Made by a program: the position numbers and the translations under genes. Shown here piece by piece: positions 1-22,514 of a DNA stretch of 32,125 nt (position 1 is the first letter of the stretch; each line of letters begins with the position of its first letter). Source of the DNA: a virus; the IMG/VR virus record IMGVR_UViG_3300043436_004961, positions 1 through 32,125 of that record, one strand, 5' to 3'. The notes under the pieces are model-generated. The model saw only the letters and a list, made by a program, of their open reading frames with translations, was not told the DNA's origin and made no database searches.

Positions 1-75
1 TTAAATATACTCCATCTCCATTAGCAGTTACTCCAGGTCCTGGAGTAACTGCTAATGGAGATGGAGTATATTTAA
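1..75. repeat. Perfect palindrome at the contig start (probable foldback artefact)
   Basis: Bases 1-37 are the exact reverse complement of 39-75, with a single T at 38 as the centre. The right arm is the end of the endolysin reading frame, also present at 31975-32014, so the left arm has no coding reason to exist. The other contig end joins past this arm, to base 36 onward. The likeliest cause is a foldback chimera from amplification or a dead-end assembly path. A covalently closed hairpin end is possible but less likely, because the palindrome lies inside a coding sequence and the circle closes without it. Confidence 0.85.
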
Positions 76-131
76 AACGTAGAAGCTGGACTTCTATTGG
101 AAAACTCGGAGGTTTTTTAAGAACATATTGA
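36..131 (+). CDS. Endolysin 3' end, duplicate of 31975..32070 (partial)
   Basis: This is the C-terminal coding part of the CHAP endolysin, repeated because the contig overlaps itself. The frame runs from the Gly-Pro-Gly-Val segment to TGA at 129-131. The two differences from the copy at the other end are both third-base and silent (Thr ACT/ACA, Gly GGA/GGT), which suggests two strain variants rather than sequencing error. It is not a separate gene. Confidence 0.85.
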   Translation, partial: GPGVTANGDGVYLKRRSWTSIGKLGGFLRTY

Positions 132-186
132 CTATTTTAAACTGCACAACAAAACAACAGCTAATTGAAAAAACCAGGAAGTAAAA
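36..186. repeat. Left copy of the terminal overlap (circle junction)
   Basis: Bases 36-186 match 31975-32125 with two differences (T50 versus A31989, A59 versus T31998). From 60 to 186 the match is exact over 127 bases. An exact 127-base overlap is what a de Bruijn assembler run at k=127 leaves on a circular contig. The genome is therefore circular or circularly permuted, about 31,939 bp. The overlap ends inside the loop of the terminator at 172-195. Confidence 0.9.
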
Positions 187-210
187 TTCCTGGTTCTTTT
201 ATTTGTTGTG
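145..210. terminator. Two-way terminator between the late (+) and early (-) operons
   Basis: The core stem is AACCAGGAA (172-180) with TTCCTGGTT (187-195) around the six-base loop GTAAAA. Read on the minus strand it is followed by six T residues; on the plus strand by CTTTTATTTG. A second stem, CACAACAAA (145-153) with TTTGTTGTG (202-210), encloses it. It lies just after the endolysin stop and just after the stop of the minus-strand gene 227-523, so it ends both converging transcripts. Confidence 0.85.
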
Positions 211-226
211 AGTTATGGTTTATGGA

Positions 227-523
227 TTACTGAACGAACGAAAGCATTGTATCATCTTCTTCAGAAAAAACAATACCATCCTTTAAAAGTATACGGTCAA
301 TAATGTCAATGCAGTTTTGAATTAGTACCTTTCTCTTTTCAACTGCTTCTTTCATTGCATTATCCCACTCTTCATCATAAGCAAACCAAGAATCATCATC
401 TTCTTCTTCAACGTCACTGTTCATTTCATTTATCACTTTCTTGTTTAACATCCAACAGTTAATAATATCATGATAAACGTTATATGCAACACTTAGAGTG
501 AAAAATCCTTCGGATGTTTTCAC
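227..523 (-). CDS. Small acidic hypothetical protein (98 aa)
   Basis: I do not recognise this protein. It is strongly acidic, with a Glu/Asp-rich stretch at about residues 36-52 followed by a mixed-charge, probably helical half. It has no signal peptide or membrane segment. The frame opens with GTG at 521-523; no in-frame ATG lies upstream before a stop. A tiny frame ending in TGA overlaps this GTG as GTGA, so reinitiation is conceivable. It is the last gene of the minus-strand early unit, separated from the helicase gene by a 300-base hairpin-rich stretch, and runs into the terminator at 172-195. Small acidic early phage proteins often bind host proteins, but that is only analogy. Confidence 0.6.
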   Translation of the reverse strand: MKTSEGFFTLSVAYNVYHDIINCWMLNKKVINEMNSDVEEEDDDSWFAYDEEWDNAMKEAVEKRKVLIQNCIDIIDRILLKDGIVFSEEDDTMLSFVQ

Positions 524-540
524 AAGCGTATTTTCTTCAT

Positions 541-809
541 AACCATCGCTTCGCTTGGTTACTACGAAAATCCACTTACAAAAGCATATGTATTTCCCTT
601 CCTACCCTACAGGTGAGTACTCATCATACTCTTCTTGAGTGGTGTTTATGACCAGGTACAAGTTTACGCAGTAACTGGTCATTAGTAACGCTTCAAAACC
701 GTAGGTTTTGCTTTATTGTTATTGTTTTGATGTTAATAACATATGGCCAGAGTCTCTGGCCAATTATAGAAGAAATGGTTCGTCGTATATATCTCTTTAT
801 AGACGAACC
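541..809. other. Hairpin-rich noncoding stretch (candidate origin or structured RNA)
   Basis: No gene is visible between 524 and 823. The stretch holds several inverted repeats: AACCA/TGGTT (541-545/556-560), palindrome GAGTACTC (615-622), ACTC/GAGT (628-631/637-640), ATGACCAG/CTGGTCAT (648-655/675-682), CAAAACC/GGTTTTG (694-700/704-710, followed by a T-rich run), the 19-base palindrome 744-762 centred on T753, and GGTTCGTC/GACGAACC (777-784/802-809). The motif GTTCGTC occurs three times at 778-824 in both orientations. It lies directly downstream of the only helicase gene. Possible roles are replication origin, 3' RNA structures, or operator sites. Confidence 0.55.
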
Positions 810-823
810 GAAAAACCGACGAA

Positions 824-1747
824 CTATAGTTTTAGGTAATATTTGTTAGCGTTGTTATCACCTTTGTCCATTCTAACATTGCTCATATTTTTAAGAATAT
901 TCCTAACTTCTATGTTAACAAACCTAATACCTTTGTCTCTCATCTTCTTAAATAATTCGCTTTGATTCATACCATCTTCAAGGTTTTCAAGAATCAAATT
1001 AGTAAGTTTAGAAATATCATCAATATCACTACTATTATCGTCTTTTAAAGTGAATGTTACTGATGTATCAGTTTCTTCAAAATCATACGAAATCTTAAAG
1101 CTTTTACCATTAGAAAATCGCTGCTTGATTACTGATATCTCACCTCTTTTGTCAATGGAAAAGAAGTTATCACAAGAGTCTTTAATAACTGATGCTCCAC
1201 GAAATTCAGAGTTTTCAGATTTACCTTTATGATGAATGATAACAGTGGTGATGATGTTTTTTAACTTCTTAGCAAAAGCCATAAATAATCGCATATGAGA
1301 GTTATTGTTTTCATCAAGTGTAGAACAGCAAGCATTTAAAGAGTCAATGACAAGAAGTTTTGCATTGTGTTTTTTAACATATTGCTCTACATCAACTAAA
1401 AACTGTTCAACTTCTTTGCTATTCAAAACATCTGGAAAATCTTCTGTTGAGTGAAGGAAATATTCACCATTAGCATAGTCAAATTTTGAAGACCTTACAT
1501 ATGATTGAAAATCTGACATTTCTTTATCAAAATAAAGAACTGTTCCTTGTTCACACTCTCTATTTAAGAAAGGCTTACCGTCAGCAACACAATGACTTAA
1601 ATAATAACTAACCCAGGTTTTTCCAACATTAGATGGACCAACCAATAGAGACAAGGAATTACTTTCAATCAAACCATCAATCAAAAAAGATTGCTTTTTG
1701 TCTTTAAACATTCCTTCATAATCCTTAACTGAACTTAACTTTAACAT
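824..1747 (-). CDS. RepA/AAA_25-like RecA-fold ATPase, probable replicative helicase (307 aa)
   Basis: Probably a ring-forming DNA helicase or helicase loader acting at phage replication. The Walker A motif GPSNVGKT is at residues 37-44 and the Walker B LLVIDS at 131-136. An IHHKGK motif (171-176) and an RGAS..I.D segment (183-190) are typical of the RSF1010 RepA-like/AAA_25 branch of RecA-fold ATPases. The last ~60 residues (from about 248) look like a winged helix that could bind DNA. The ATG at 1745-1747 is preceded by GGAAGG, which lies inside the end of the upstream gene, and the two genes are 2 bases apart, so they are co-transcribed. No primase, polymerase or ligase is present, so the phage must borrow host replication enzymes. 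Confidence 0.85.
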   Translation of the reverse strand: MLKLSSVKDYEGMFKDKKQSFLIDGLIESNSLSLLVGPSNVGKTWVSYYLSHCVADGKPFLNRECEQGTVLYFDKEMSDFQSYVRSSKFDYANGEYFLHSTEDFPDVLNSKEVEQFLVDVEQYVKKHNAKLLVIDSLNACCSTLDENNNSHMRLFMAFAKKLKNIITTVIIHHKGKSENSEFRGASVIKDSCDNFFSIDKRGEISVIKQRFSNGKSFKISYDFEETDTSVTFTLKDDNSSDIDDISKLTNLILENLEDGMNQSELFKKMRDKGIRFVNIEVRNILKNMSNVRMDKGDNNANKYYLKL

Positions 1748-1749
1748 AA

Positions 1750-2277
1750 TTAACCTTCCATAACCTCAAACTCAGATGTATATGTAGCATCTTCGGTAAC
1801 AGTGTCTATCCTAAAACACTTCTTATCAAAATCAAAATACAAAGACTTGGCTGGTGAAAAGTCTGATTCTTCAACATAACCAATCTCTTGTAAATTAAAA
1901 CCATTGTGAAAATCAATGTCTTCAGAAGATGGTGAGTTCTTAAAAAAGTCTATATGGTACTTTCCACTATTGTATTTCTTAACCAAATAAAACCTTTTTG
2001 AATTCCTGTGAAAATACAACCAAGACTCAACCTTAGGATAAAAAATCTTAGAGACCAATACCAACTCACCATATATTTTATATTTTCCAAACATCCTACC
2101 AGTCGAATATTCCTTTGATGGCTTACTTTTAAATATCTCTACCAACTTATCAAAATTGGAAAATACTTCCTTGCCAGTCATATCTTTTGGAGTTCCATAT
2201 AACTCTTCCATCTCACTGAATCTAACAGGATTACCAAACTTCTTTTCGTAATCCTTAGAGTAATTCTTCTTAATCAT
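1750..2277 (-). CDS. Hypothetical early protein, first gene of the minus-strand operon (175 aa)
   Basis: I do not recognise this protein. It is lysine- and aromatic-rich (many Phe, Tyr), predicted soluble, with an alternating pattern in the C-terminal half that suggests beta strands. The frame extends upstream to 2469, but that extension crosses both promoters and the divergent gene. The better start is ATG at 2275-2277, preceded by GGAAGG about 9 bases upstream and about 35 bases from the TATAAT at 2312-2317. It leads the operon that contains the helicase, so a role in early takeover or replication is a reasonable inference and nothing more. Confidence 0.7.
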   Translation of the reverse strand: MIKKNYSKDYEKKFGNPVRFSEMEELYGTPKDMTGKEVFSNFDKLVEIFKSKPSKEYSTGRMFGKYKIYGELVLVSKIFYPKVESWLYFHRNSKRFYLVKKYNSGKYHIDFFKNSPSSEDIDFHNGFNLQEIGYVEESDFSPAKSLYFDFDKKCFRIDTVTEDATYTSEFEVMEG

Positions 2278-2311
2278 CCTATAAATCCTTCCAAACGTTA
2301 AACACATCAAC

Positions 2312-2341
2312 ATTATAACGTATACTCTGATAAAAGTGCAA
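2312..2341 (-). promoter_or_regulatory. Leftward early promoter
   Basis: On the minus strand, TTGCAC (2336-2341) and a perfect TATAAT (2312-2317) are separated by 18 bases. It reads toward the gene at 2277. The plus-strand element TATAACGTATAC (2314-2325) overlaps the -10 box and recurs at other early promoters. The -35 box is 5 bases from that of the divergent promoter. Confidence 0.7.
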
Positions 2342-2346
2342 CATCC

Positions 2347-2376
2347 TTGCAAAAATATATTTGTATGTGTTATAAT
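2347..2376 (+). promoter_or_regulatory. Rightward early promoter, apparently giving a leaderless mRNA
   Basis: TTGCAA (2347-2352), an 18-base spacer and TATAAT (2371-2376) are visible. The ATG of the next gene starts at 2383, only 6 bases after the -10 box, which is where transcription should begin. There is no room for a ribosome site. The two -35 boxes form an inverted repeat, TGCAA-catcc-TTGCA (2338-2351), so one bound regulator could affect both directions. Confidence 0.7.
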
Positions 2377-2382
2377 ATTGGT

Positions 2383-2610
2383 ATGGACGAAGAAGAAGAT
2401 TTTATCATTTCTGAAGAAGGTGTTATTCCCTACGTCAGAATCTATATCACTGTTGGAAAAGCTAATCACGATATGCTTGAAATAGATGAAATTATTGATG
2501 CCTTAACACAAGATAACAAATCACCTAGTGAAAACATTAAAGATATTATTGACAAGGGAATGGTTAATATCTACGCTTGCACATTTAACGAGACAGTAAA
2601 AGTATTATGA
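2383..2610 (+). CDS. Small acidic hypothetical protein (75 aa)
   Basis: I do not recognise this protein. It begins with a run of Glu/Asp and has a helix-prone middle (about residues 31-60). A TTG at 2347 would add 12 residues but sits in the -35 box of the promoter, so ATG 2383 is the better start. The start codon coincides with the expected transcription start, implying leaderless translation. Its TGA overlaps the ATG of the HTH gene (ATGA at 2607-2610). It heads the rightward operon that goes on to the HTH protein, sigma factor and terminase, so it may be an early regulator. Confidence 0.65.
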   Translation: MDEEEDFIISEEGVIPYVRIYITVGKANHDMLEIDEIIDALTQDNKSPSENIKDIIDKGMVNIYACTFNETVKVL

Positions 2611-2819
2611 AGAGAAAAGATTTACTTATCACAGAATTGACACAGATGGAAATTGCAGAAAGGGTAGGCGTAGCTCAACCTTTAATAAGTAGATGGTTCT
2701 CAGGTTCTTGTATGCCTCGTCCTTCTACGATTAAAAGATTAGCAACAGCATTGGAAGTGAGCGAAAAGGAATTATTAGTCTATTTGTATGAAAAACATCA
2801 AAACCTGGCAAGATTATAA
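2607..2819 (+). CDS. Cro/CI-type (XRE) helix-turn-helix regulator (70 aa)
   Basis: Residues 12-50 form a recognisable XRE-family helix-turn-helix: TQMEIAERVGVAQPLISRWF followed by G...P....IKRLATALEVS. The protein is about the size of Cro-like repressors and has no extra domain. It overlaps the previous gene as ATGA, and the sigma-factor gene starts inside its last 32 bases. It is the natural candidate for binding the TATAACGTATRC-like elements at the early promoters, including the divergent pair 230 bases upstream, and so for an early shut-off or autoregulatory loop. This target is inferred from position, not shown. Confidence 0.85.
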   Translation: MKRKDLLITELTQMEIAERVGVAQPLISRWFSGSCMPRPSTIKRLATALEVSEKELLVYLYEKHQNLARL

Positions 2820-3561
2820 ATACTCTAGGAAATTAAATCCTGGATATCCTAATCTTGCCGAGGATAAGTTTTTGCATAATCAACTACAAACAAGACATAG
2901 AGAAAAAGCTCTTAATGAAATTATCACCATCAATATGTCCCAAGTACACAAAATATGCAAAACTTATCATTGGTGTAATCTTGACTATGAAGACCTTATC
3001 CAATATGCAATAGAAGGAATCATAGCAGCAGCAGATAACTACAAACCTGAAAGTGGTAATAAGTTTTCAACATTAGCTTATCATTACATTTTAGGAAGAG
3101 TTAGAAGAGCAATAGAACAATACAATCACACTATTAAAATCCCAGCTCATATCAATTTAGCAAAATTAAGAATAAACCACCTTGACCTTGAAAAAGAAAT
3201 TACAGATGAAGAGTTATTACCACTAGTCACTGAAAAATATTCCTTGTATTCATTACGCCAAGCAATAATAGCAAAAGGCATTAAAATACAAGAGTTCGAC
3301 CCAACTTATGATGTTGATGTTGAGTTTGTAGAAAACCAAACTAATGAAGCTAACTATGCTATTAATCAAATACTCTACACGCTTAGACCTATTGATATTA
3401 AATGCATAGAAATGTACTTTGGTCTTAATAACAATCGAACACATTTTTACAAAGAGATAGATAAAGAGCTTAATGTTGACAGCGAAGGCATAATCAAACG
3501 AGCATTGATTAAACTAGGAAATATTAGTGGAATTGAGTCGTTTTTGGATTACTTAAAATGA
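2788..3561 (+). CDS. Phage-encoded sigma70-family RNA polymerase sigma factor (257 aa)
   Basis: Region 2 spans about residues 36-118. It contains DLIQYAIEGIIAAADNYKP, the GNKFSTLAYHYILGRVRRAI helix corresponding to regions 2.3/2.4 that contact the -10 element, and the following IKIPAHI. Region 4 (about 190-248) has L.P.D..CIEMYFGL and a degenerate helix-turn-helix ending KRALIKLGNI. The middle resembles a reduced region 3. It overlaps the HTH gene before it, and its TGA overlaps the ATG of terS. A sigma factor placed before the packaging genes should redirect host RNA polymerase to late promoters; the shared element at 5743, 9240 and 12032 is the obvious candidate target. An ATG at residue 50 exists but would remove conserved region 2.1. 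Confidence 0.85.
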   Translation: MKNIKTWQDYKYSRKLNPGYPNLAEDKFLHNQLQTRHREKALNEIITINMSQVHKICKTYHWCNLDYEDLIQYAIEGIIAAADNYKPESGNKFSTLAYHYILGRVRRAIEQYNHTIKIPAHINLAKLRINHLDLEKEITDEELLPLVTEKYSLYSLRQAIIAKGIKIQEFDPTYDVDVEFVENQTNEANYAINQILYTLRPIDIKCIEMYFGLNNNRTHFYKEIDKELNVDSEGIIKRALIKLGNISGIESFLDYLK

Positions 3562-3995
3562 GTTTAACACAAGAAAAGAAACCAGAAATTATTGCTTTAT
3601 TATTACAGGGCAAATCCTTAAACGAAGTGCAAAAAATCACTGGGGTTTCTAAATCTGCTATCTGGAGAATTAAAGAAGAGATTAAAGAAGGCAGGTATCA
3701 ATCTCATTTAAAACAAGTTGAAGAAAATATTGGAGATTTGATTGCAGAGAGTTTATTAATACATTTAGGTGCGATGAATAGTATAGCTAAGGTGGCAAAT
3801 GAGGAAGGATACATCAGACAACAGAACAGTAGAGATATTGCAGAGCTCCATCGGACAATGGAAAACTGGACAATTTCAATTCTTTCAGCCGCAAACAACC
3901 TCAAACAACAAGCCAATTCTCAAGAACAATACGGCCTACAACACGATAGGTTCGACAGACTTGAAATTGAAGAAACCAATAAACCAATTTCATAA
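3558..3995 (+). CDS. terS: Terminase small subunit, putative (145 aa)
   Basis: It probably recognises phage DNA for packaging. The first ~45 residues form a helix-turn-helix (LLLQGKSLNEVQKITGVSKS, then AIWRIKEEI), as in many small terminases; the rest (about 50-125) is helical and could form the oligomerisation core. Its position directly before terL supports the call, which would be weak from sequence alone. It starts at the ATGA overlap with the sigma gene (3558-3561). Its 3' end overlaps the terL start by 35 bases if terL begins at TTG 3961, or by 197 bases if terL begins at ATG 3799. Confidence 0.75.
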   Translation: MSLTQEKKPEIIALLLQGKSLNEVQKITGVSKSAIWRIKEEIKEGRYQSHLKQVEENIGDLIAESLLIHLGAMNSIAKVANEEGYIRQQNSRDIAELHRTMENWTISILSAANNLKQQANSQEQYGLQHDRFDRLEIEETNKPIS

Positions 3996-5283
3996 ATATT
4001 TACTTGAAACATCACCTAGAGAATGGAACTTACACGCTAAACATATTTTATTAATCTGCGAATACTTACAAAAAGTGGCTGATGGTGAAATTAAAAGACT
4101 TGCAATCTCGCTACCTCCGAGGTCAGGCAAGAGTGAAATACTACTTAGATTCGCTGCTTTTATGCTTGAAAAAAACAAGAATATCAATGTTTTATGTGCA
4201 GGTTATAGTCAAAGCATAGCAAGAAGATTTAGTCGGAAAACACGCACAATTATCAATGAAAGAATTGGTTTATCAAATAATCACCAAAGCATAGATGAAT
4301 GGTCCTCTAATAATGGAAGTGTTTATTATGTTGGCTCTGTAAACAATCCTCGCACTGGTGTCGGATATCACACTATTATTTGCGATGATTTAGTTAAGAA
4401 CAGAGAAGAGGCAAACAGTCCTACAATAGTGCAAAAACTGGAGGATTTTTATAGAGAAGATTTGTATTCTCGTCTCGAACCATCTGGAACTATGATACTT
4501 GTTGGCACTCGTTGGTCGGAAAATGACCCTATTGCTCTTGCTGTTAGTCTTGATGATTCTTTCACAGTTATTAACATTCCTGCACTATGTGATGATGAAG
4601 AAAATGACCCACTAGGACGTAAATTAAATGAATCAATCTTTCCTGGACGCTTTAGCACAGAAGATTATTTAGCAATTAAAGATGTTATGGGAGAGTTTGG
4701 TTTTAGTGCATTATATCAGGGTAAGCCAATACCTAAAGATGGTGGACTTTTTAAACCTGATAGAATAAAAATAGATTCTCCAACAAAAATAATAAAGAAG
4801 GTAAGAGCATATGACTTGGCAGCATCGTCTGGTAAAGGTGATTTTAGTTGTGGAGTTCTTCTTGGAATTGATGAAGAGAATAGGTTTTGGATATTAGACG
4901 TTTATAGAAGCCAAGATTCCACTGAGAAAAGAGATGCAAAAATACTTCAGATTAGTGAGCTTGATGGTAGGGAAACAAGAATACGGATTCCTCAAGACCC
5001 AGGTAGTGCAGGCAAGAGTTTATCTCATTATTTTATTAAAATGTTGTCAGGATTTATCGTTAACAGTCCTACAGTCACAGGAAATAAAGAGACGAGAGCA
5101 GAACCAATTGCAATACAAGTCAACGCTGGAAATGTTAGTATGATTAAAGCAGATTGGAATAGAGATTTAATAAAAGAACTTGAGGTTTTTCCATATGGTA
5201 AAAATGATGACCAAGTTGACGCTTTAGCAGATGCATTTGATGAGTTAACAAGAAATAAAACACGGAAATTTAGGGCAATTTAA
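3961..5283 (+). CDS. terL: Terminase large subunit (packaging ATPase and nuclease, 440 aa)
   Basis: This is the motor that pumps DNA into the prohead and cuts it. Numbered from TTG 3961: Walker A PPRSGKS at 52-58, Walker B TIICDD at 138-143, and the coupling motif GTRW at 182-185. The RNase H-like nuclease has AYDLAAS (Asp 285), IPQDPGS and a closing NDDQVDALADAF (Asp 416, 417 and 420). The frame is open back to ATG 3799, but those 54 extra residues lie wholly inside terS and look like out-of-frame sequence. The conserved part starts at about INQFHKYLLE. An AGG lies 10 bases before TTG 3961; TTG 3967 is another option. The stop overlaps the HNH start as TAATG. Confidence 0.92.
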   Translation: MKLKKPINQFHKYLLETSPREWNLHAKHILLICEYLQKVADGEIKRLAISLPPRSGKSEILLRFAAFMLEKNKNINVLCAGYSQSIARRFSRKTRTIINERIGLSNNHQSIDEWSSNNGSVYYVGSVNNPRTGVGYHTIICDDLVKNREEANSPTIVQKLEDFYREDLYSRLEPSGTMILVGTRWSENDPIALAVSLDDSFTVINIPALCDDEENDPLGRKLNESIFPGRFSTEDYLAIKDVMGEFGFSALYQGKPIPKDGGLFKPDRIKIDSPTKIIKKVRAYDLAASSGKGDFSCGVLLGIDEENRFWILDVYRSQDSTEKRDAKILQISELDGRETRIRIPQDPGSAGKSLSHYFIKMLSGFIVNSPTVTGNKETRAEPIAIQVNAGNVSMIKADWNRDLIKELEVFPYGKNDDQVDALADAFDELTRNKTRKFRAI

Positions 5284-5747
5284 TGGCAAGAAATAAAAGA
5301 GAACCTATAGAAAGGTTTAATGAAAAATATATAGTTAATGTTGATACTGGTTGCTGGGAATATACTGGTCACATAAATCAATCTGGATATGGTGTGTTCA
5401 GAGGTAATAATAGCCAATGGATTGAAGCACATAGATTTTCTTTTGAATATCATAAAGGTCCTATTAAAAAAGGATTAGTCTGCTGTCATTCTTGTAATAA
5501 TCGAAAATGTTGCAATCCAGACCATTTAAGACAAGATACTCAAAGCAATAATTTAATAGATATGTCTTACCAAAATACTAATCCAACACAAGTCCTAACT
5601 GTCCAAGATGTGATTGAAATTAAAAAAGCTCAAAAAGAATATTACCGTGGACAAAACATTCATTTAGCTGAAAAATATAATGTTAGTAGAGAAACAATAT
5701 CTTCTATAAAAAGAGGCACAACTTGGTCTCATATATCAATACCGTAA
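5283..5747 (+). CDS. HNH endonuclease with C-terminal helix-turn-helix (154 aa)
   Basis: The N-terminal half is an HNH_3-type nuclease: EAHRFSFEYHKGP leads to CCHSCNNRKCCNPDHLRQ, with His69, Asn78 and His81 as the catalytic H-N-H and four Cys that may bind zinc. Residues 106-150 (LAEKYNVSRETISSIKRGTTW) form a DNA-binding helix-turn-helix common in free-standing homing endonucleases. It begins with TAATG on the terL stop, and its stop codon lies in the late-promoter element at 5743-5760. It could be a selfish homing endonuclease, or an HNH protein that assists terminase, as reported for phage HNH proteins encoded beside terminases. Position does not decide. Confidence 0.88.
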   Translation: MARNKREPIERFNEKYIVNVDTGCWEYTGHINQSGYGVFRGNNSQWIEAHRFSFEYHKGPIKKGLVCCHSCNNRKCCNPDHLRQDTQSNNLIDMSYQNTNPTQVLTVQDVIEIKKAQKEYYRGQNIHLAEKYNVSRETISSIKRGTTWSHISIP

Positions 5748-5760
5748 AAATATAATAGAT
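5743..5760 (+). promoter_or_regulatory. Putative late promoter element (portal unit)
   Basis: CGTAAAAATATAATAGAT ends 22 bases before the portal ATG and overlaps the HNH stop codon. It contains a TATAAT but no recognisable -35 box. It matches the elements at 9240 and 12032, and the downstream leader also shares AAGGATTTAAA with the 12032 unit. Confidence 0.6.
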
Positions 5761-5782
5761 TAACATCAAGGATTTAAATACA

Positions 5783-7435
5783 ATGGGCTTCTTCGATTTC
5801 TTACGACTATCAGCTAAAAACCAACCAATAGCAAATATAAGCCAGAACCTTCCACTGCCAACTGTTATGCGTGGACAAAACTACTTATCAGGTATTGGCC
5901 TTCAGGATTTATTTGCTAACCTTTCTCGAAGATTACCAAACACATCTAAAGACTGGCAAAACATCTGTGGCGACTTGATGCTTAACTCCATCGTCGCAAT
6001 AAGCATGGACTATTATATCAGAGGTTTTTCACAAGCGCTTCCAATGGTTTATAGACTTGTTGAAGGTAGCGATTCTGAATATGAAAAATATCCAGAACAT
6101 CCTATGATTGCCCTTATATCCAATCCTCAATATCAATTAGCACCAACACGTTTCTGGAGCAATTGTATTATTGATTACAAGATTTATGGAAATGTTTATA
6201 TCCGAAAGATTAGAAAATCAAAAGGCGGTCCAATAATAGGATTGCAGTTTTTACCATCACAACAATGTCAGCCTGTTGGAGATAATATAAATCCTATTAC
6301 CCACTATAACTATGTTGTTGACGGTACTCCATATGCAGTTTCACCAGAAGATATTATTCACATAGCTTACGGCAGAGACCCAATTGATTATAGACTTGGT
6401 CGTTCTCCGCTTATGTCAGTTTTAAGAGAAATAGCAACAGATAACGTAGCTTCATCTTGTGCTTTTGGTCTTATGAATAACTCTGGTCTTCCAAGTATTA
6501 TGGTAAGTCCTGATGCTACTGACCAAATTGTAGACATTAGTGATGACGACTTGCGAACAATGAAGAGACGTTTAGAGGATTCATTTACAGGCGACAATGC
6601 AGGTTCTATTGCTGTCATGTCTGGTCCATTTAAAGTGGAAAAAGTATCATTCTCACCTAATGAAATGGCTCTTGATTCTATTAGACATACACCTGAAGAA
6701 AGAATATCCTCTGCAATGGGTTTAAACTGTATGGTCTTAAACTTGTCTGCAGGCTTAGAAAACTCAACCTATTCTAATATGTTTGAGGCAGAAGCAGCAG
6801 CATGGAATCAAGGTATTATTCCACTCTTAACTGTATTTGCAGAATCTATTACTCAAAACTTATTAGGTGAATTTCCTGAAACACAAGAGGGTGATTTTTA
6901 CAACTGGGACTTAAGCAAAATTAAAGCATTACAAGATGATAGTTTAAGTGAAGCAAAGAGAGCTGAAACATTATATAAGGCTGGAATTATCGATAGGTCA
7001 GAAGCTAAGAGAATTGTTGGCTATGATTACAACGCTACTGATGAAGAGATTTACCATCCTCAAGGCACACCAATATCTACTCAAAACCCAAACTCTGATG
7101 TTGCTGGAAAAAGTATCAAAGCATCTTACAAACCAAATGCATCTATGGTCACTAACGCAAAAAGAGCATTAAAGTGGAAAGATGAAGGCAGAGACGGCGG
7201 AACAATCATAGGTTTAACAAGAGCAAATCAAATTGTTAACGAAGAAAACTTATCAGAAGATACTGTTGTTAGAATGTATAGTTTCTTCAGTAGACACGAA
7301 GTAGATAAAAAAGCAGAAGGATTTAACTCTGGAGAAGATGGATATCCAAGTAACGGTAGAGTAGCCTGGGACCTTTGGGGTGGTGATGCTGGATTTACTT
7401 GGTCAAAAAATATAGTGGACAAATTGCAGGATTAA
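5783..7435 (+). CDS. Portal protein with extra C-terminal domain (550 aa)
   Basis: The dodecameric portal forms the DNA gate at one head vertex. Residues 1-~425 follow the HK97-type portal pattern: WSNCIIDYKIYGNVYIRKIR, EDIIHIAYGRDPI...G.SPL, the GPFKVEKVSFSPNEMALDS segment with RHTPEERISSAMG, and LSEAKRAETLYKAGIIDRSE near the end. Residues ~448-547 form a separate conserved segment, with KRALKWKDEGRDGGT, VRMYSFFSRHEVDKKAEGF and GYPSNGRVAWDLWGGDAG.TW. I recall similar segments attached to other phage head proteins but cannot name a function. The ribosome site is AAGGA at 5768-5772. The gene ends 60 bases before a strong terminator. Confidence 0.9.
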   Translation: MGFFDFLRLSAKNQPIANISQNLPLPTVMRGQNYLSGIGLQDLFANLSRRLPNTSKDWQNICGDLMLNSIVAISMDYYIRGFSQALPMVYRLVEGSDSEYEKYPEHPMIALISNPQYQLAPTRFWSNCIIDYKIYGNVYIRKIRKSKGGPIIGLQFLPSQQCQPVGDNINPITHYNYVVDGTPYAVSPEDIIHIAYGRDPIDYRLGRSPLMSVLREIATDNVASSCAFGLMNNSGLPSIMVSPDATDQIVDISDDDLRTMKRRLEDSFTGDNAGSIAVMSGPFKVEKVSFSPNEMALDSIRHTPEERISSAMGLNCMVLNLSAGLENSTYSNMFEAEAAAWNQGIIPLLTVFAESITQNLLGEFPETQEGDFYNWDLSKIKALQDDSLSEAKRAETLYKAGIIDRSEAKRIVGYDYNATDEEIYHPQGTPISTQNPNSDVAGKSIKASYKPNASMVTNAKRALKWKDEGRDGGTIIGLTRANQIVNEENLSEDTVVRMYSFFSRHEVDKKAEGFNSGEDGYPSNGRVAWDLWGGDAGFTWSKNIVDKLQD

Positions 7436-7494
7436 CGTATAATAATAGTGTTCTTAATTGTTTACTGGTTCATAAATTTCCTATTCCTAAACGA

Positions 7495-7528
7495 AAATAA
7501 CCCCTGGATTTTACTCCAGGGGTTATTT
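7495..7528. terminator. Strong two-way terminator after portal
   Basis: A 14-bp stem (7495-7508 with 7515-7528), including TAACCCCTGGA/TCCAGGGGTTA, surrounds a six-base loop TTTTAC, with TTTATTTATTT downstream on the plus strand and A-rich sequence upstream. It ends the portal transcript and the converging minus-strand gene at 7531. Confidence 0.9.
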
Positions 7529-7530
7529 GT

Positions 7531-7821
7531 TTATTTATTTGGAGAATATCCAAAAGTATAAGCATAAAAACCTCTTGCATTGTCTTGTTTGCTTACATAT
7601 TCTGCTTTTGTGAAATCCATAACCCACTTATTTTTATATTGTTCCTTAATACCAAAGGTTTCTGGTTTTGAAACATCTTCAAGATATAAGTCATTAATCA
7701 TTGCAAACTTATATAACTCTTCCAAATATTCTTCACTAATCCCTTTAGACTTATCTCTTACAACAATACAACCACATTGACCTGATTCAAAAACTCTAAT
7801 GCTTTTTGTGTTCTTAAACAT
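7531..7821 (-). CDS. Accessory hypothetical protein (96 aa), single-gene cassette
   Basis: I do not recognise this protein. It is soluble, of mixed charge, with a CGC triplet at residues 16-18 and an aromatic C-terminal tail (FYAYTFGYSPN). The frame opens to 7866, but that start lies in the -10 box of its promoter. ATG 7819-7821, with GGA shortly upstream, is more likely. It has its own promoter (7857-7885) and a terminator (7495-7528), and it points against the structural operon between portal and protease. That arrangement is typical of 'moron' genes acquired as accessory functions such as superinfection exclusion or anti-defence. The specific role is unknown. Confidence 0.65.
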   Translation of the reverse strand: MFKNTKSIRVFESGQCGCIVVRDKSKGISEEYLEELYKFAMINDLYLEDVSKPETFGIKEQYKNKWVMDFTKAEYVSKQDNARGFYAYTFGYSPNK

Positions 7822-7856
7822 TTCATTCCAACTTTCTATAAACTTCCTACACCAAT

Positions 7857-7885
7857 ATAATAGCATAGGTTATAAAGTAATGCAA
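7857..7885 (-). promoter_or_regulatory. Promoter of the 96-aa accessory gene
   Basis: On the minus strand: TTGCAT (7880-7885), 17-base spacer, TATTAT (7857-7862). The spacer carries TATAACCTATGC. About 29 of 32 bases match the promoter at 8379-8407. It starts immediately after the terminator of the upstream accessory gene. Confidence 0.75.
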
Positions 7886-7888
7886 GAA

Positions 7889-7914
7889 AAAACCCTCATA
7901 TTCCAGAGGGTTTT
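7889..7914 (-). terminator. Terminator of the 146-aa accessory gene
   Basis: On the minus strand, AAAACCCTC and GAGGGTTTT form a 9-bp stem (7889-7897 with 7906-7914) around an 8-base loop, followed by a T run. It lies just after the TAA at 7919-7921 and just before the next promoter. Confidence 0.88.
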
Positions 7915-7918
7915 AAGT

Positions 7919-8359
7919 TTAAGCAAGTTCGATGTAAAGAGAAAGTTCTTTTTTCTTTACCAACTTCCAAATATCATCTAAGGTAAAAGGACCATATTCA
8001 GTCTCATAACCTTCTACTAAACCGTGAAATACTACGCTACCACTACTCCAATCAAAATCCTTAAAATTAACTTGCCATTTCCATCCAATTTCAGGACAAA
8101 TAAAAGTAAACCAAGTTCTATTAATTTTATTTGAAAGATTAACTGAAGGAATGTGGTCAATCATAAAATAAAGTTTTTCAATATTCACTTCATTTTCATT
8201 AAAACCATCGTATAGTTGTTTCCAGTTTTTCTTTACATCAATCTTTTCATTAACACCACCCAAATCAATAATATCTACAAGAGAGATGTTTACTGTTTGC
8301 GATACAATTCCAAGATTACTAAGCAACTGTTCTAAAGACATTTCGTTCAAACCTTTCAT
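7919..8359 (-). CDS. Accessory hypothetical protein (146 aa), single-gene cassette
   Basis: I do not recognise this protein. The N-terminal ~35 residues are helix-prone, the middle is rich in aromatic residues (HIPSVNL...TWFTFICPEIGWKWQVNF), and the end has LDDIWKLVKKKEL. There is no membrane segment. Two starts are possible: ATG 8357-8359, or ATG 8339-8341 (residue 7), which has the better AAAGG ribosome site. Its own promoter (8379-8407) and terminator (7889-7914) make it an independent unit inside the late region, on the opposite strand to the head genes. An accessory role is inferred from this context only. Confidence 0.7.
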   Translation of the reverse strand: MKGLNEMSLEQLLSNLGIVSQTVNISLVDIIDLGGVNEKIDVKKNWKQLYDGFNENEVNIEKLYFMIDHIPSVNLSNKINRTWFTFICPEIGWKWQVNFKDFDWSSGSVVFHGLVEGYETEYGPFTLDDIWKLVKKKELSLYIELA

Positions 8360-8378
8360 TCAACTCATCAACAGATAT

Positions 8379-8407
8379 ATAATAGCATACGTTATAAATG
8401 ATTGCAA
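8379..8407 (-). promoter_or_regulatory. Promoter of the 146-aa accessory gene
   Basis: On the minus strand: TTGCAA (8402-8407), 17-base spacer, TATTAT (8379-8384). The spacer carries TATAACGTATGC (reverse strand of 8385-8396). It is nearly a copy of the promoter at 7857-7885. Confidence 0.75.
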
Positions 8408-8487
8408 GAAAATAGATGGGTTTTTTTCAAGACAGATTCCGAATAAAACAGTGCGCCATATTTATTTCTTAAAATAAAACCTAACGA

Positions 8488-8520
8488 AAAAAAGTCACTA
8501 CCACATCTAGTGGCTTTTTT
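8488..8520. terminator. Two-way terminator insulating the accessory cassettes
   Basis: GTCACTA (8494-8500) pairs with TAGTGGC (8508-8514), with one G-T pair, and is extended by A6/T6 flanks (8488-8493 with 8515-8520). Both strands show a T run. No gene ends into it from the left on the plus strand, so it seems to separate the minus-strand cassettes from the plus-strand gene at 8560. Confidence 0.8.
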
Positions 8521-8524
8521 GTTG

Positions 8525-8553
8525 TTTAACTATATAACGATAGAGTGTATAAT
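8525..8553 (+). promoter_or_regulatory. Promoter with leaderless architecture for gene 8560
   Basis: TATAAT (8548-8553) lies 6 bases before the ATG at 8560, the same spacing as at 2371/2383. The -35 box is poor (TTTAAC, 8525-8530, 17-base spacer). TATAACGATAG (8533-8543) in the spacer resembles the early operator-like element. Confidence 0.55.
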
Positions 8554-8559
8554 ATTATT

Positions 8560-8853
8560 ATGACACACAAGGACATTATTACAATCACAGCATTTAAAGA
8601 GATGGGTTTTAAGAACATAGATTTAAAATATATCTCTGACATTAAACTCAACAGGATTACTTGTGAGATGGATATGAAAGTTGGCAAAGGTACATACACT
8701 ATACCATTTGAAGCTTTTTGCAATCCATCAAATAAAATAACTCTTTCAAAACATTATCTTTTTGCAGAAGTAGTGAAAATGTTAGAGGAATTTAATGCAC
8801 TAGACTATAAATCAAAAGTATCTTATTTAGATAAGTTAGGTGCAAAACAATGA
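8560..8853 (+). CDS. Accessory hypothetical protein (97 aa), probably leaderless
   Basis: I do not recognise this protein. It is soluble, Lys- and Ile-rich, with a compact alternating N-terminal half (KDIITITAFKEMGFKNIDLK) and a helical C-terminal third. The frame extends to a GTG at 8545, but that codon precedes the -10 box, so ATG 8560 is the start. There is no ribosome site between -10 and ATG, so translation is presumably leaderless. Its TGA overlaps the ATG of a following mini-gene (ATGA, 8850-8853). Together with 8905-9069 it makes a small plus-strand accessory cluster that ends at the 9147-9172 terminator. Confidence 0.6.
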   Translation: MTHKDIITITAFKEMGFKNIDLKYISDIKLNRITCEMDMKVGKGTYTIPFEAFCNPSNKITLSKHYLFAEVVKMLEEFNALDYKSKVSYLDKLGAKQ

Positions 8854-8915
8854 AACTAGGCGAATATATTTTAAATCTTCTTATTAGGCAAATGACAGAA
8901 AAGAATGATAGATAA
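8850..8915 (+). CDS. Possible 21-aa mini-protein
   Basis: A very short frame starting MKLGEYILNLL, coupled to the previous gene by ATGA and overlapping the next by 11 bases. It could be a real micropeptide or only a translational bridge that delivers ribosomes to the 54-aa gene. It is too short to judge by composition. Confidence 0.3.
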   Translation: MKLGEYILNLLIRQMTEKNDR

Positions 8916-9069
8916 ATTATTACTATTATTCTTTGCATTATTTAACTTGTATTTACTATGGCGAATTGATAAAATAGAGAAAGAACGACCAAGCTACCAT
9001 GATATTAAAAAAATATTTGAGATTCTTGTCGATAAAGTTACAAGGAATGAATATGACACAAGTATATGA
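8905..9069 (+). CDS. Small single-span membrane protein (54 aa)
   Basis: The frame encodes MIDKLLLLFFALFNLYLLWR, a clear single membrane span at residues 5-19, followed by a charged helical tail of about 34 residues. The layout (short N-terminus, one span, charged cytoplasmic tail) is seen in small phage membrane proteins, including some holins, antiholins and exclusion proteins. No holin lies beside the endolysin, so this is one of two candidates; the other is 12949-13194. It overlaps the 21-aa frame by 11 bases. A further 17-aa frame (9047-9100) overlaps its end and I do not count it as a gene. Confidence 0.5.
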   Translation: MIDKLLLLFFALFNLYLLWRIDKIEKERPSYHDIKKIFEILVDKVTRNEYDTSI

Positions 9070-9095
9070 TTGGATTACTAAGTTTAATAAAATGG

Positions 9096-9174
9096 TATAA
9101 TCTAATCAGTTCTCAAAAACTGCTCGACAAAACCTGTGGGGGAGGGAAAACCAGCCTTAAAAAGCTGGTTTTTC
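9096..9174 (+). ncRNA. Candidate small RNA ending in an intrinsic terminator
   Basis: A TATAAT at 9096-9101 is followed by a hairpin CAGTT/AACTG (9107-9111/9118-9122), a G-rich stretch (TGTGGGGGAGGG, 9135-9146), and a terminator stem AAAACCAGC/GCTGGTTTT (9147-9155/9164-9172). No reading frame fits. A transcript starting near 9108 would be about 65 nt. The -35 box is poor (TTGGAT, 20 bases away). It may instead be the 3' UTR and terminator of the 8560-9069 cluster. Confidence 0.35.
9147..9172 (+). terminator. Terminator closing the accessory island
   Basis: AAAACCAGC (9147-9155) and GCTGGTTTT (9164-9172) form a 9-bp stem with loop CTTAAAAA, followed by T and TTTG. It separates the accessory genes from the late promoter at 9240. 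Confidence 0.85.
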
Positions 9175-9239
9175 TTTGTTTATAGGTTCAAAAAACAACT
9201 ATAACCATTTCAGTGTAATATTTTTAATATCTTATATAT

Positions 9240-9258
9240 CGTAAAATAATATTAGAAT
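9240..9258 (+). promoter_or_regulatory. Putative late promoter element (protease-capsid unit)
   Basis: CGTAAAATAATATTAGAAT starts 41 bases before the protease ATG and matches the elements at 5743 and 12032 in position and in CGTAAAATA, though its TATAAT part is degenerate. The leader contains GAGGATTAA, matching the other two late leaders. Confidence 0.5.
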
Positions 9259-9280
9259 TGGATATTAGAGGATTAATTGT

Positions 9281-10624
9281 ATGTTTAAAGCAAAACCTGA
9301 AGATTTAAAAATGGATGACTATGTATCTTGGGGTACTTCTGCGTCTGATGCAAGAGGTAAGATTGTAGATATTCGTACAGATGGCGAAGTACAGTCATCA
9401 ATCTCAGACTATACTTTAACTGGAACACCTGAAGACCCTGTATATCTCATTAAATTAGTGCAAAAGGATCAAGACGGTAAAGATGTTTTGACCGACCAAA
9501 CAGTAGTCCATAGAGCTGATGCATTAAGAGTTATTCCAGACCCTATTAAATCAATGAAGACTTTTTACTCATCAGAAATTAAAGCCAAAGAAAATGGTGT
9601 TGTTGAGGGTTATTTAGTACGATTTGGCAATTCTAATGACACTGATTTAGAAAAGGATTATTTTACTAAGTCCACTGATTTTGGATTTGAATTTGATAAT
9701 GGTGAAAGTCATAAGCTTGGTCTTTATTACAACCACGGAATGGACAAGACTTTAGGCACAAAAAAGATTGGCTATGGCACTGTTAAGATGGATGATAAAG
9801 GTCTTTGGTATTCAGCTCAATTAGATATGGCTGATGAATATTCTAAGATGATTTATGACCTTGCTAAAAAAGGTCAATTAGGTTTTAGTTCTGGTTCCGC
9901 TTCACATATGGTTGAAAGAGAAATGATGGGCAAGTCTTATGAAATTAAAAGATGGGCACTTGCAGAAGCATCATTAACACCTACACCTGCTGAATATCGT
10001 AATAAAGCTGAAGCAAAGAGATATTTTGATGAAGAAGGCAGATATGTTGACTATACCGAAAAGGAAAAAAGAGAAATGTCAAAGAAATCTGAAGACGAAT
10101 ATGAATCAGAAGGTGAAAATGTAGACGATATGGTGGAAGGATTAATGATGATTAATGCTACACCAGAAGAAATTGCCTCTACTATTTACGATGGAGTCGA
10201 AGAAGATTTAGTTGCTGATTCAATTCACTGCCTATATAAACGAATGATAGAGGGTGTTTTAGGTGTGATTGAGTCTAATGGTGATATTGCTACTATTAAT
10301 GCAGTAGTTCAAGGTTTTCACGACAGAGTTTTAATGGTTGCAGATAAGTATGTTGCAATGCCAGATGCTCAAATGTCTATGGAAATGGAAGCAATGAAGG
10401 GTATAGTTGCTAAATCACCTGAAAATATTAAACAATGTGAAAGAGCCTTGCGTGATGCTATGGACCTTTCTCGCAGCCAAGCTAAGGGTTTGGCAAAATT
10501 GGTTTGGTCTCATTTGCGTGATGTAGATGATATTCAAGAACCAGAAATTAAAAAAACAATTGATATTGATAAAGAGGCTGAAAGAAATGCATTACTTACA
10601 GCAGCTTTGAAATATTTAATTTAA
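9281..10624 (+). CDS. Prohead protease with Tudor-like N-terminal and scaffold-like C-terminal parts (447 aa)
   Basis: It cleaves head proteins during maturation. Residues 9-86 (DYVSWGTSASDARGKIVDI, then TDQTVVHRADALRVI) look like the small beta-barrel 'hypervirulence-associated TUDOR' domain. Residues 93-250 form the HK97 U35-type serine protease, with YYNHG (His152), LGFSSGS (Ser203/204) and LAEASLTPTPA. Residues ~262-447 are acidic and helical and end in ALRDAMDLSRSQAKGLAKL, a motif I associate with phage head maturation proteins; this part may act as scaffold, since no separate scaffold gene is seen. The ribosome site is GAGGA at 9268-9272. The usual portal-protease adjacency is broken by the 1.8-kb accessory island. 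Confidence 0.9.
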   Translation: MFKAKPEDLKMDDYVSWGTSASDARGKIVDIRTDGEVQSSISDYTLTGTPEDPVYLIKLVQKDQDGKDVLTDQTVVHRADALRVIPDPIKSMKTFYSSEIKAKENGVVEGYLVRFGNSNDTDLEKDYFTKSTDFGFEFDNGESHKLGLYYNHGMDKTLGTKKIGYGTVKMDDKGLWYSAQLDMADEYSKMIYDLAKKGQLGFSSGSASHMVEREMMGKSYEIKRWALAEASLTPTPAEYRNKAEAKRYFDEEGRYVDYTEKEKREMSKKSEDEYESEGENVDDMVEGLMMINATPEEIASTIYDGVEEDLVADSIHCLYKRMIEGVLGVIESNGDIATINAVVQGFHDRVLMVADKYVAMPDAQMSMEMEAMKGIVAKSPENIKQCERALRDAMDLSRSQAKGLAKLVWSHLRDVDDIQEPEIKKTIDIDKEAERNALLTAALKYLI

Positions 10625-10653
10625 GTCGAAGTACAAGACTAAGGTAAAAAAAA

Positions 10654-11967
10654 ATGACACTTGAAGAAATCCAAGCCAAAATCAAAGACAATGCGATTAA
10701 GGCTACTGAAATTCTAGAGCTTGAAAATGCAGATACAGTTGCAGCTAAAGCTCTAATCGAAGAAAACAAAGCATTGGAAGAAAAAGCAGAGATGATTAAA
10801 GCTCTTGCACAAGTTCCTACTGCTACTCCAGATAACGTAGAGGTTAAAAAAATGTCCGATATTATCATTCCTAGCTCTTCATCTTTTAAAAATGTTAAGG
10901 GCTTTTCACCAGATTCCCGTGCAGAAAAAGAAAAGATGGGTTATGCTTTTGGTCAGTTGGCTAAGATGGTTGGCCGTGGTGACAAAAAAGCTCATCAGTG
11001 GTTGGTCGAAAATGGTTTTTACACCAAGGGTCAGAACGAAACAACCGATGCAGACGGTGGATATTTAGTTCCACAGATTCTTGCAAGAGAAGTTATTTTC
11101 TTGCGTGACCAATATGGTGTTATGAGACAAAATGCTCGTGTCATGGGTATGTCAAGCGATAACTTGAACGTTCCAAAGAACACTGCTTCAACAACTGCTT
11201 ACTGGCCAGCTGAAAACACCAACATCACTGCATCACAGGTAACTTTTGCAAACGTTCAAATCCTTGCTAAGAAGCTTGCTATTCTTACACAAGTATCTTC
11301 AGAACTTCAAGAAGACTCCATTGTTGATGTCGGTGCTACATTGGCACAAGATATGGCATATGTAATGGCATACAATGAAGACCTTGCAACCTTCTTAGGT
11401 GATGGTACTTCCACTTATGGTGGTATTACTGGTGTTGTTCCACAGATTGCTGGTGTTAACGGTGGTGCTAACGCAGGTTGGATTTACACTGGTGCTGACG
11501 TAACTGGTGGTTGGAATGCAACTACTCTTGCAGACCTTCGCAAACTTACTGCAGCTATTCCTCAGTATGCAGATAGACCAGGCGAGTGTGCATTCTATAT
11601 GAACCGTGCATTCTTCCAACAGGTTGTCTGCAATGACCTGGATGCTTTAAGCGGCAACGGCTTCTTTGACCTTACTGCAGCTCCAGGACCTAACCCAACA
11701 TTGTTTGGTTATCCTGTCATCTACACTCAGGTATTAAGCCAAGACCCAACACCTGCAGCTGACACTGCTCTTGCACTCTTTGGTAATATGTCCACTGGTG
11801 CTATTATGGGTTCCAGACGTGACCTTAGAATTCAAGTATCTGACCAAGCTGGTTTCATTAGTGATTCCCTCTTCTTCCGAGCTACCGAGCGCTTTGGGTT
11901 CAAATATCACGATTTACCAACAGCATCCGTTTGTGGAAGTATTGCGGTGCTTGTCGCCAACAATTAA
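10654..11967 (+). CDS. Major capsid protein, HK97 fold (437 aa)
   Basis: It forms the head shell. Residues 1-~65 are a charged coiled-coil delta domain of the kind removed by the protease. An internal ATG at residue 67 could make a shorter form. The HK97 core starts at about residue 100, with the familiar TTDADGGYLVP (130-140), then FLRDQYGVMRQNARV and later AFYMNRAFFQQV. The ribosome site is AAGG before an A-run. The gene is visibly richer in C-ending codons (AAC, TTC, GAC) than its neighbours, consistent with very high expression. A strong terminator follows. Confidence 0.93.
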   Translation: MTLEEIQAKIKDNAIKATEILELENADTVAAKALIEENKALEEKAEMIKALAQVPTATPDNVEVKKMSDIIIPSSSSFKNVKGFSPDSRAEKEKMGYAFGQLAKMVGRGDKKAHQWLVENGFYTKGQNETTDADGGYLVPQILAREVIFLRDQYGVMRQNARVMGMSSDNLNVPKNTASTTAYWPAENTNITASQVTFANVQILAKKLAILTQVSSELQEDSIVDVGATLAQDMAYVMAYNEDLATFLGDGTSTYGGITGVVPQIAGVNGGANAGWIYTGADVTGGWNATTLADLRKLTAAIPQYADRPGECAFYMNRAFFQQVVCNDLDALSGNGFFDLTAAPGPNPTLFGYPVIYTQVLSQDPTPAADTALALFGNMSTGAIMGSRRDLRIQVSDQAGFISDSLFFRATERFGFKYHDLPTASVCGSIAVLVANN

Positions 11968-11987
11968 TAGTATCATTACTATTGGAG

Positions 11988-12011
11988 AAAGACCAGAGAA
12001 ATCTGGTCTTT
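11988..12011 (+). terminator. Strong terminator after the capsid gene
   Basis: AAAGACCAG (11988-11996) and CTGGTCTTT (12003-12011) form a 9-bp stem around AGAAAT, followed by a run of T. It isolates protease-capsid transcription from the connector and tail genes, which start again from the element at 12032. Confidence 0.92.
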
Positions 12012-22335: not shown

Positions 22336-22514
22336 TCGGATGCTCACCGCAGGTACTTTATTTTAGTATTAAGTATCTGCGTAGGCATCCGAGTGAAACA
22401 AACCTCACTATTGACCAGTTTGCTGAAATTGCTTATGTATGTAGAGAAATAGAAAAAGCAGAAGCAGACCAAGCTACTGCTATATTAAAAGCATTAATGG
22501 GAAGTAGACTATGA
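21955..22514 (+). CDS. Tail assembly chaperone, -1 frameshift form (GT-like, 186 aa)
   Basis: After the slip at 22323-22329 translation continues from 22329 in the -1 frame for 61 codons to TGA 22512-22514, with no earlier stop. The extension (RRHPSETNLTIDQFAEIAYV, then REIEKAEADQATAIL) looks like a real T domain: amphipathic, ending in an acidic helix. It has no start codon of its own near its beginning. The TGA overlaps the tape-measure ATG (22511-22513). In lambda-like tails both forms are needed in a fixed ratio. Confidence 0.85.
22323..22392 (+). promoter_or_regulatory. Programmed -1 frameshift signal: slippery heptamer plus hairpin
   Basis: The canonical heptamer A AAA AAC (22323-22329) is in the right phase. 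After a 7-base spacer comes a large hairpin: TCGGATGC (22336-22343) pairs with GCATCCGA (22385-22392), and CGCAGGTACTT (22348-22358) pairs with AAGTATCTGCG (22371-22381) with one G-U, around a 12-base loop. Spacer and stem lengths are as expected for a stimulatory structure. Confidence 0.9.

Follow-up and report, generated by a model that had tools for sequence, protein, structure and literature searches.

The DNA considered here, called the window, is the whole of one phage record in IMG/VR (IMGVR_UViG_3300043436_004961; 32,125 nucleotides, nt). Its element of interest is a region of hairpins and short repeats lying between the stop codon of a RepA-like helicase gene and a small gene on the same strand further to the left, for which a role as replication origin is proposed below. 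The initial annotation placed a hairpin cluster at 541-824, beside the helicase gene. The region does adjoin that gene, but on its 3′ (downstream) side, and the unit that is exchanged between related phages extends left to about 490. The features of the locus are the following, with lengths of proteins in amino acids (aa).

824-1747, minus strand: gene of an RSF1010-RepA-like helicase (AAA_25, RecA-fold), 307 aa; Pfam AAA_25, E 3e-26
833-1015, minus strand: predicted C-terminal winged-helix-like domain (AlphaFold2 model), residues about 245-305, the proposed repeat-binding part
802-824, minus strand: three tandem 8-nt repeats, GTTCGTCG GTTTTTCG GTTCGTC, starting inside the helicase stop codon (TAG, 824-826)
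777-809: hairpin in which the third repeat is paired with its inverted copy (arms 777-784 and 802-809)
744-762: palindrome TGGCCAGAG-A-CTCTGGCCA; its core GGCNNGA-N3-TCNNRCC is common to all four helicase phages (the window and three relatives presented below)
717-741: stem TGTTATT/AATAACA, from the stem search
694-710, plus strand: hairpin CAAAACC-GTA-GGTTTTG, terminator-like on this strand by consensus scan only
648-682: hairpin ATGACCAG/CTGGTCAT, from the stem search
541-560: hairpin AACC..GGTT enclosing GCTTCGC/GCGAAGC (548), from sequence and folding
498-523: stem GTGAAAA/TTTTCAC, outer end of the region, from the stem search

Hairpins and Repeats behind the Helicase Gene

The cluster of inverted repeats that had been described at this site was borne out by counting, since seven perfect Watson-Crick stems (at least 7 base pairs (bp), loop of at most 30) were found in 490-823, against a mean of 0.75 (standard deviation 0.82, maximum 3) in 100 dinucleotide shuffles. 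Among 316 sliding windows of 334 nt, taken from position 201, the stem-richest were those starting at 501 and 601, each with 6 stems against a mean of 1.00. RNA folding of 524-823 gave z-scores of −5.1 on the minus and −5.0 on the plus strand, with 0 of 200 shuffles as good, and a scan of 213 windows of 250 nt, with 12 shuffles per window, put 751 and 601 third and fourth by mean z, rank 1 being taken by a fold-back. This fold-back, recognised by eye at 1-75, is probably an assembly artefact. Strong structure was also predicted at 22201-22450 and 23101-23350 (mean z about −5.5 and −4.3), the former at a gap (22336-22510) preceding a long open reading frame (ORF; 22511-24604).

The individual elements of the initial annotation were likewise found to be accurate. 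The 19-base palindrome has arms of 9 nt around a single central nucleotide and, like the 8-bp stem 777-784/802-809, contains no mismatch. GTTCGTC occurs three times in the entire window, always within 778-824, once on the plus strand (778) and twice on the minus (802 and 818). These three copies, two direct and one inverted and at most 50 nt from the stop codon, gave p 0.010 in an exact 7-mer test, uncorrected for 23 tests. Tandem iterons of about 20-22 nt were absent from 400-900, and the region therefore does not have the make-up of an iteron-controlled plasmid-type origin, in which such iterons lie by a Rep gene.

The Helicase and Its C-Terminal Domain

The helicase carries the Walker A motif GPSNVGKT, and a profile built from seven helicases returned RSF1010 RepA (1g8y) as the top solved chain (E 6.9e-10). 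The AlphaFold2 model (mean predicted local distance difference test score, pLDDT, 76; predicted template modelling score 0.70) was superposed on 1g8y by VIA-align with Z 20.1 and a root-mean-square deviation of 3.2 over 202 residues, tied with DnaB-family chains within 1 Z unit, and Foldseek placed KaiC chains first and RepA 1nlf at rank 21. The core thus has the RecA fold, the Walker A motif and the RepA fold of an RSF1010 RepA-type helicase.

The VIA-align matches cover residues 9-244, that is, the motor part without the C-terminal domain. In the model, this domain is formed by helices at 245-255, 262-271 and 279-286 and strands at 291-295 and 301-305 (pLDDT of the block about 60-85), and its fold is predicted to be winged-helix-like. 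The tail is conserved in four helicases of the family and missing from three short helicases that consist of the ATPase only. No primase or DNA polymerase was found by PHROGs scans among 28 window proteins, a set that leaves the 1522-aa protein at 16041-20609 outside, and the primase/helicase-family matches fall entirely within the helicase's own motor domain.

Conserved Layout in Related Phages

Relatives were sought in the viral_contigs collection through the terminase, helicase alignments and a 75-aa protein; the helicase alone as query returned no relatives there, and a DNA pattern derived from L002 and L037 matched only those two. Three phages found by their terminase hold a relative of the helicase, namely L002 (46% identity), L037 (43%) and L050 (29%). 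In these and in the window, the helicase stop codon is followed by short repeats, a hairpin and a 17-nt palindrome, in this order. In all four helicase phages the repeats stand at the stop codon or within about 10 nt of it and the palindrome comes next, and this order is kept despite an inversion of the cassette in the window relative to the other three. The repeats at the stop codon read GTTCTGCG GTTTTGCG GTTCTGC in L002, GGTTCTTC GGTTCTTC in L037 and GTTTTGCT GTTTTGC in L050. The initial annotation had suggested their conservation as a check: degenerate counterparts occupy the same place in all three relatives, but they are not significant there as exact 7-mers.

The palindromes are GGCCAGA GAC TCTGGCC in the window, GGCTCGA GAC TCGAGCC in L037, GGCTCGA GCT TCGAGCC in L050 and GGCCAGA GCT TCTGACC in L002. 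Covariation, the other check that had been suggested, was seen in the palindrome, with 27 of 28 pair cells kept and two of seven pairs changed on both sides, a score that was also reached by 15 of 500 shuffles. Among the loci searched, the motif was present in the four helicase genomes and in none of the iteron-type loci, with an extra match (5 of 7 pairs) in the unrelated L014. A non-coding hairpin stretch lies 3′ of the helicase gene in all three relatives; eight perfect stems were counted in L002, against 1.61 in shuffles (maximum 7), and six in L050, against 0.69 (maximum 4), and the hairpin region of L002 folded with z −4.55.

Exchange against Iteron/Rep-like Modules

A further line of evidence comes from a related phage, L048, in which the locus is occupied by another module. 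Two more features are needed here.

490-2309: exchange cassette, comprising the hairpin/repeat region, the helicase gene and the 177-aa gene; absent from L048, which has an iteron/Rep-like module instead
1750-2283, minus strand: gene of a 177-aa protein with no assigned function, upstream of the helicase gene; diverged relatives also occur in iteron-type modules

In a blastn comparison with L048, 33-489 matched at 96.3%, 490-2309 matched nothing, and from 2310 onwards the match resumed at 83.9% over 5278 nt, the first three proteins to the right of the cassette being 98.7-100% identical. Since L048 lacks 490-2309 between near-identical flanks, hairpins and helicase have been exchanged as one cassette. 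L048 is otherwise a mosaic, with repressor, sigma factor, portal, capsid and lysin 98-100% identical to those of the window, the terminase 60% and a tail protein 50%. Along window 28491-32070, the lysin of L041 and L048 is 97-98% identical and the adjoining tail protein 42-50%.

In place of the cassette, L048 carries GTCAAACAAATA at 6468, 6490, 6512 and 6534, in 22-nt steps, together with one inverted copy, a Rep-like ORF 34.7% identical to that of L042, a second such ORF (58.9% against the one in L041) and a diverged counterpart of the 177-aa gene (38%). The helicase was not found by tblastn in any of 12 other family contigs holding the locus (L005, L006, L039, L041, L042, L043, L048, L052, L054, L055, L056, L065), and a profile search found it absent from all five whole records tested, which may themselves be fragments. 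At least three tandem 21-22-nt units were present in seven of 11 loci searched (L006, L039, L041, L042, L043, L048, L065), L042 and L043 sharing the same array; none of that kind was seen in L005, L052, L055 and L068. A Rep-like ORF was detected in nine of 11 contigs tested, the exceptions being L054 and L056/L068. Judged from these sequences, the helicase/hairpin cassette has been swapped against what looks like a plasmid-type replicon.

Two side observations concern these modules. An ORF adjoining the Rep-like ORF in iteron-type modules (L006 7833-8276, L042 7729-8259) has what we take to be a GIY-YIG-like motif. The word GCGAAGC/GCTTCGC, known for forming an unusually stable DNA mini-hairpin, occurs once in each of four sequences and always at this locus (window 548, L050 1759, L048 6365, L006 6596).

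Repeat Arrays behind Other RepA-like Helicases

The association of repeats with the 3′ end of the helicase gene was also examined beyond this family. The commonest 7-mer on either strand was counted in the 200 nt from the stop codon, and at least four copies were scored as an array, a threshold chosen after the first set had been seen. That set comprised 23 helicases: the window, L002, L037 and L050, 12 of 24 loci from a helicase-alignment search, and seven phage records among 20 listed of 393. It left out L012 and L013 (the contigs of L002 and L037) and L021-L026, L028, L030, L032 and L033, which are apparent near-copies by match coordinates.

Arrays were found behind six of the 23 helicases (L014, L017, L018, L035, L071, L073) against four of 226 other ORFs in the same loci (Fisher p 5e-5); the 22 regions taken from upstream of helicases had none. 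All six belong to the 18 helicases with a C-terminal extension, as judged by eye from the sequence, and none to the five without it (L016, L020, L029, L031, L034). In the second set, arrays followed five of eight helicases against three of 49 controls, with TGCGGAA x12 in L079, CTACAAA x11 in L085, CGTCACA x7 in L080, CGTGACA x6 in L081 and TTCCGCA x4 in L084; L078, L082 and L083 were negative. The array of L085 is the same as that of L071, and without L085 the count becomes four of seven. This second set consisted of one phage record and of three of nine and four of 40 rows from two further searches, the last four reached with L018, itself array-positive, as query; plasmid matches from Escherichia, Klebsiella, Salmonella and Enterococcus were not included.

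All control positives were kept. The four of the first set are two in L015 and two in L017, and in the L017 pair as well as in the three second-set controls the repeat word is identical to that of the helicase array of the same locus. A preceding form of the test scored pairs of 7-mers over 150 nt; with direct and inverted pairs taken together, 10 of 16 helicases and 15 of 206 controls reached p < 0.02. Several of the helicase positives were driven by single hairpins, four of them in ATPase-only helicases, and direct pairs alone gave five of 16 against 11 of 206. Repeat arrays behind RepA-type helicases were not reported as a rule in the open-licence papers that the searches brought up, surveyed mostly at title and abstract level, which is weak evidence of absence.

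Two arrays deserve mention on their own account. In the Caenibius plasmid p1 (L079 3529-3730), TGCGGAA stands 12 times in the 200 nt after an AAA-family ATPase gene, which makes this a clear candidate origin. In L015, GGTAGCC is repeated nine times near 6648, some 1 kb downstream of the gene of a RepA-like helicase, possibly as a displaced array.

A Candidate Replication Origin and Its Proposed Recognition by the Helicase

These results altogether suggest that the region serves in cis as an origin of DNA replication, placed directly behind the gene of its own helicase and recognised by it via the C-terminal domain, a reading to which a probability of roughly 0.6 is assigned. It draws on features established by computation, namely the repeats and hairpins, their order behind the helicase, the joint exchange against an iteron/Rep-like module, the RepA-like core and the predicted C-terminal fold. 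An origin next to the RepA-like helicase had been a candidate from the start, and it now has partial support from the cassette swap, the repeats and palindrome conserved in four of four phages, and the arrays behind other RepA-like helicases.

The mechanism that we infer would begin with a hexamer of the RepA-type helicase recognising the short repeats at its own stop codon through the winged-helix-like domain, and perhaps the palindrome too. The helicase would load at the repeats and open the neighbouring DNA, and hairpins extruded on the separated strands could then provide the entry site for a host primase or primosome, which is invoked because no primase was recognised in the phage.

Several observations weigh against an origin of this kind. 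Of the 18 helicases in the first set that have a C-terminal extension, no array of at least four copies follows 12, those of the window, L002, L037 and L050 among them. The exact 7-mer test gave two copies in L002 (p 0.97), two in L037 (p 0.86) and three in L050 (p 0.063); exact 7-mers being not outstanding there, the argument from the relatives' repeats rests on position and degenerate similarity. The evidence of the palindrome comes from four sequences, of which L002 breaks one pair, and beyond the repeats and the palindrome, no alignment of the window's hairpins with those of its relatives could be made. L037 has three perfect stems against 0.60 in shuffles and is weak on its own, since shuffles reach a maximum of 3. 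A weak promoter-like site (9/12) lies inside the region of L002, on the opposite strand. GC skew, which the initial annotation had proposed to compute, fell almost monotonically along the L002 record with no turn near the site, and was uninformative; the genes located in locus L002 all run in one direction. Lastly, the swapped-in Rep-like ORFs had no Pfam match above the cut-off and weak PHROGs matches, and the model of one Rep-like ORF was poor (pLDDT 61), with no meaningful match in the PDB. Their role as initiators is drawn from the iterons and their position, because no known family matched above the cut-off.

Alternative Readings

The structured RNA between genes that had been put forward beside the origin is now disfavoured relative to it. 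Such a non-coding RNA of the helicase cassette, acting as replication primer or copy-control RNA or as regulatory RNA of the early operon, is an unlikely reading, although the strong folding on both strands, seen in L002 too, and the two compensatory pair changes in the palindrome would suit it. Moreover, some mycobacteriophages are described as replicating as prophages with a non-coding RNA and others with a RepA-like protein (PMC7157519). Against it, no Rfam match was obtained at the gathering threshold in the window, nor any in L002 and L037, and with E up to 1 in four relatives the sole matches lay in L041, outside the locus. Promoter-like sites were no commoner than in shuffles, and the weak one in L002 was the single case inside the region, by a consensus scan only and in a phage that encodes its own sigma factor. 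G-U pairs favour no consistent strand, their larger share being on the opposite strand in three genomes and on the helicase strand in L050. In L002, L037 and L050, the hairpin after the repeats is a strong terminator that ends the helicase transcript before the palindrome is reached, and no promoter-like site follows in that direction until the far end. Such an arrangement would suit a DNA site from which transcription is excluded, and counts in favour of the origin as well.

The same terminators speak for a second and rather less probable possibility, in which the region would hold helicase-operon terminators and operator sites with no part in the start of replication. Two terminator-like sites were found in the window against 0.3 expected (744-762 on the helicase strand, 694-710 on the other), and a repeat array by a DNA-binding gene could be an autoregulatory operator. 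However, the terminator-like tails of the window (TATGTTATTA, CTTTATTGTT) are weak, the region has more elements than one terminator needs, repeats behind the stop codon and away from the helicase promoter make a poor site for autoregulation, and the cassette is exchanged against iterons.

Another cis DNA site travelling with the cassette, whether for partition (a centromere) or as a hot spot of recombination at its edge, is improbable: the region does extend to the boundary at 489/490, and palindromic sites can promote exchange, but the scan of 28 window proteins gave no ParA/ParB-like or recombinase match, the repeats and palindrome are nearer the helicase, at distances of up to about 330 nt from that boundary, and the other boundary (2310) is outside the 15 stem-richest of the 316 windows.

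Other Features of the Window

The next gene leftwards of the hairpin region has an ambiguous start, at GTG 523 or ATG 424. The statement that nothing coding is visible in the region holds, with the caveat that a frame of 26 codons (ATG 682) runs into the next ORF via an in-frame TAG; these codons lie within the segment absent from L048, and tblastn with the frame matched no relative in that part. A recoded stop, by which the in-frame TAG (near 603) would link the upstream frame to the 98-aa ORF, was considered, the helicase also ending in TAG. It was rejected because 28 of the 29 listed gene calls end in TAA or TGA and the upstream part lies in the swapped segment and has no match in relatives.

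The 177-aa protein had no PHROGs or Pfam match, and a tRNA scan of the window found none. No near-identical phage records were found for window 1-12000, and searches of genome_contigs with the helicase and with the capsid returned no relatives. The last 127 nt (31999-32125) are identical to 60-186, and the genome is thus probably circular or terminally redundant.

Wider Meaning and Comparison with Known Systems

More tentatively, and at somewhat less than even odds, RepA-type helicases with a fused C-terminal winged-helix-like domain may be widespread one-protein initiators of phages and plasmids, each recognising a repeat/hairpin origin behind its own stop codon and merging the jobs of RSF1010 RepA and RepC, with the case described here swapped against an iteron/Rep replicon. 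If so, the sequence that follows the stop codon of a RepA-like helicase would be enough to locate the origin in many phages and plasmids, each such helicase coming with its target, and it would be explained how RepA-type helicases are loaded in the absence of a visible RepC or loader gene. As a pair, the window and L048 carry different kinds of replicon in near-identical surroundings and would offer a natural experiment on the switching of replication systems.

On the reading preferred here, the region may work like the origins of SaPI Rep, SCCmec Cch2 and pRN1. For SaPI Rep and SCCmec Cch2, which are self-loading initiator helicases, the origin is described as lying directly downstream of the helicase gene and being bound by the C-terminal domain of the helicase, the Cch2 site also having inverted repeats able to form hairpins (PMC7581432). 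The window shares with them short repeats directly downstream of its own helicase gene (three GTTCGTC); it differs in that its motor is RecA-fold and RSF1010-RepA-like, and that repeat binding is here a proposal.

In pRN1, a stem-loop downstream of the replication gene was required for replication, whereas the intervening terminator was dispensable, and the same has been suggested for some phages (PMC4234260). A C-terminal winged helix, in the present helicase a predicted winged-helix-like domain, and a terminator-like hairpin followed by a stem-loop directly downstream are common to pRN1, by analogy phage BIP-1, and the present locus (PMC4234260). However, pRN1 has one 100-nt stem-loop and a superfamily 3 primase-helicase, while the present locus has a number of smaller hairpins together with short repeats, and no primase was recognised.

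With RSF1010 oriV, the likeness lies in RepA, the top solved relative of the helicase by profile, and in hairpins (ssi) that prime after unwinding (PMC4234260), a use proposed for the hairpins here. In that plasmid, a separate RepC binds the iterons and RepB' primes (PMC4234260), neither of which was recognised here, and the winged-helix-like tail of the window helicase falls outside the stretch aligned to RepA. A RecA-like phage helicase has been described in work which also mentions that, in RSF1010, RepC melts the origin before RepA is loaded there (PMC8965321). Cluster A mycobacteriophages resemble the present family in that related phages have alternative replication systems, both near partition genes (PMC7157519). 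There, a RepA protein alternates with a non-coding RNA, whereas here an iteron/Rep-like module alternates with the helicase/hairpin cassette.
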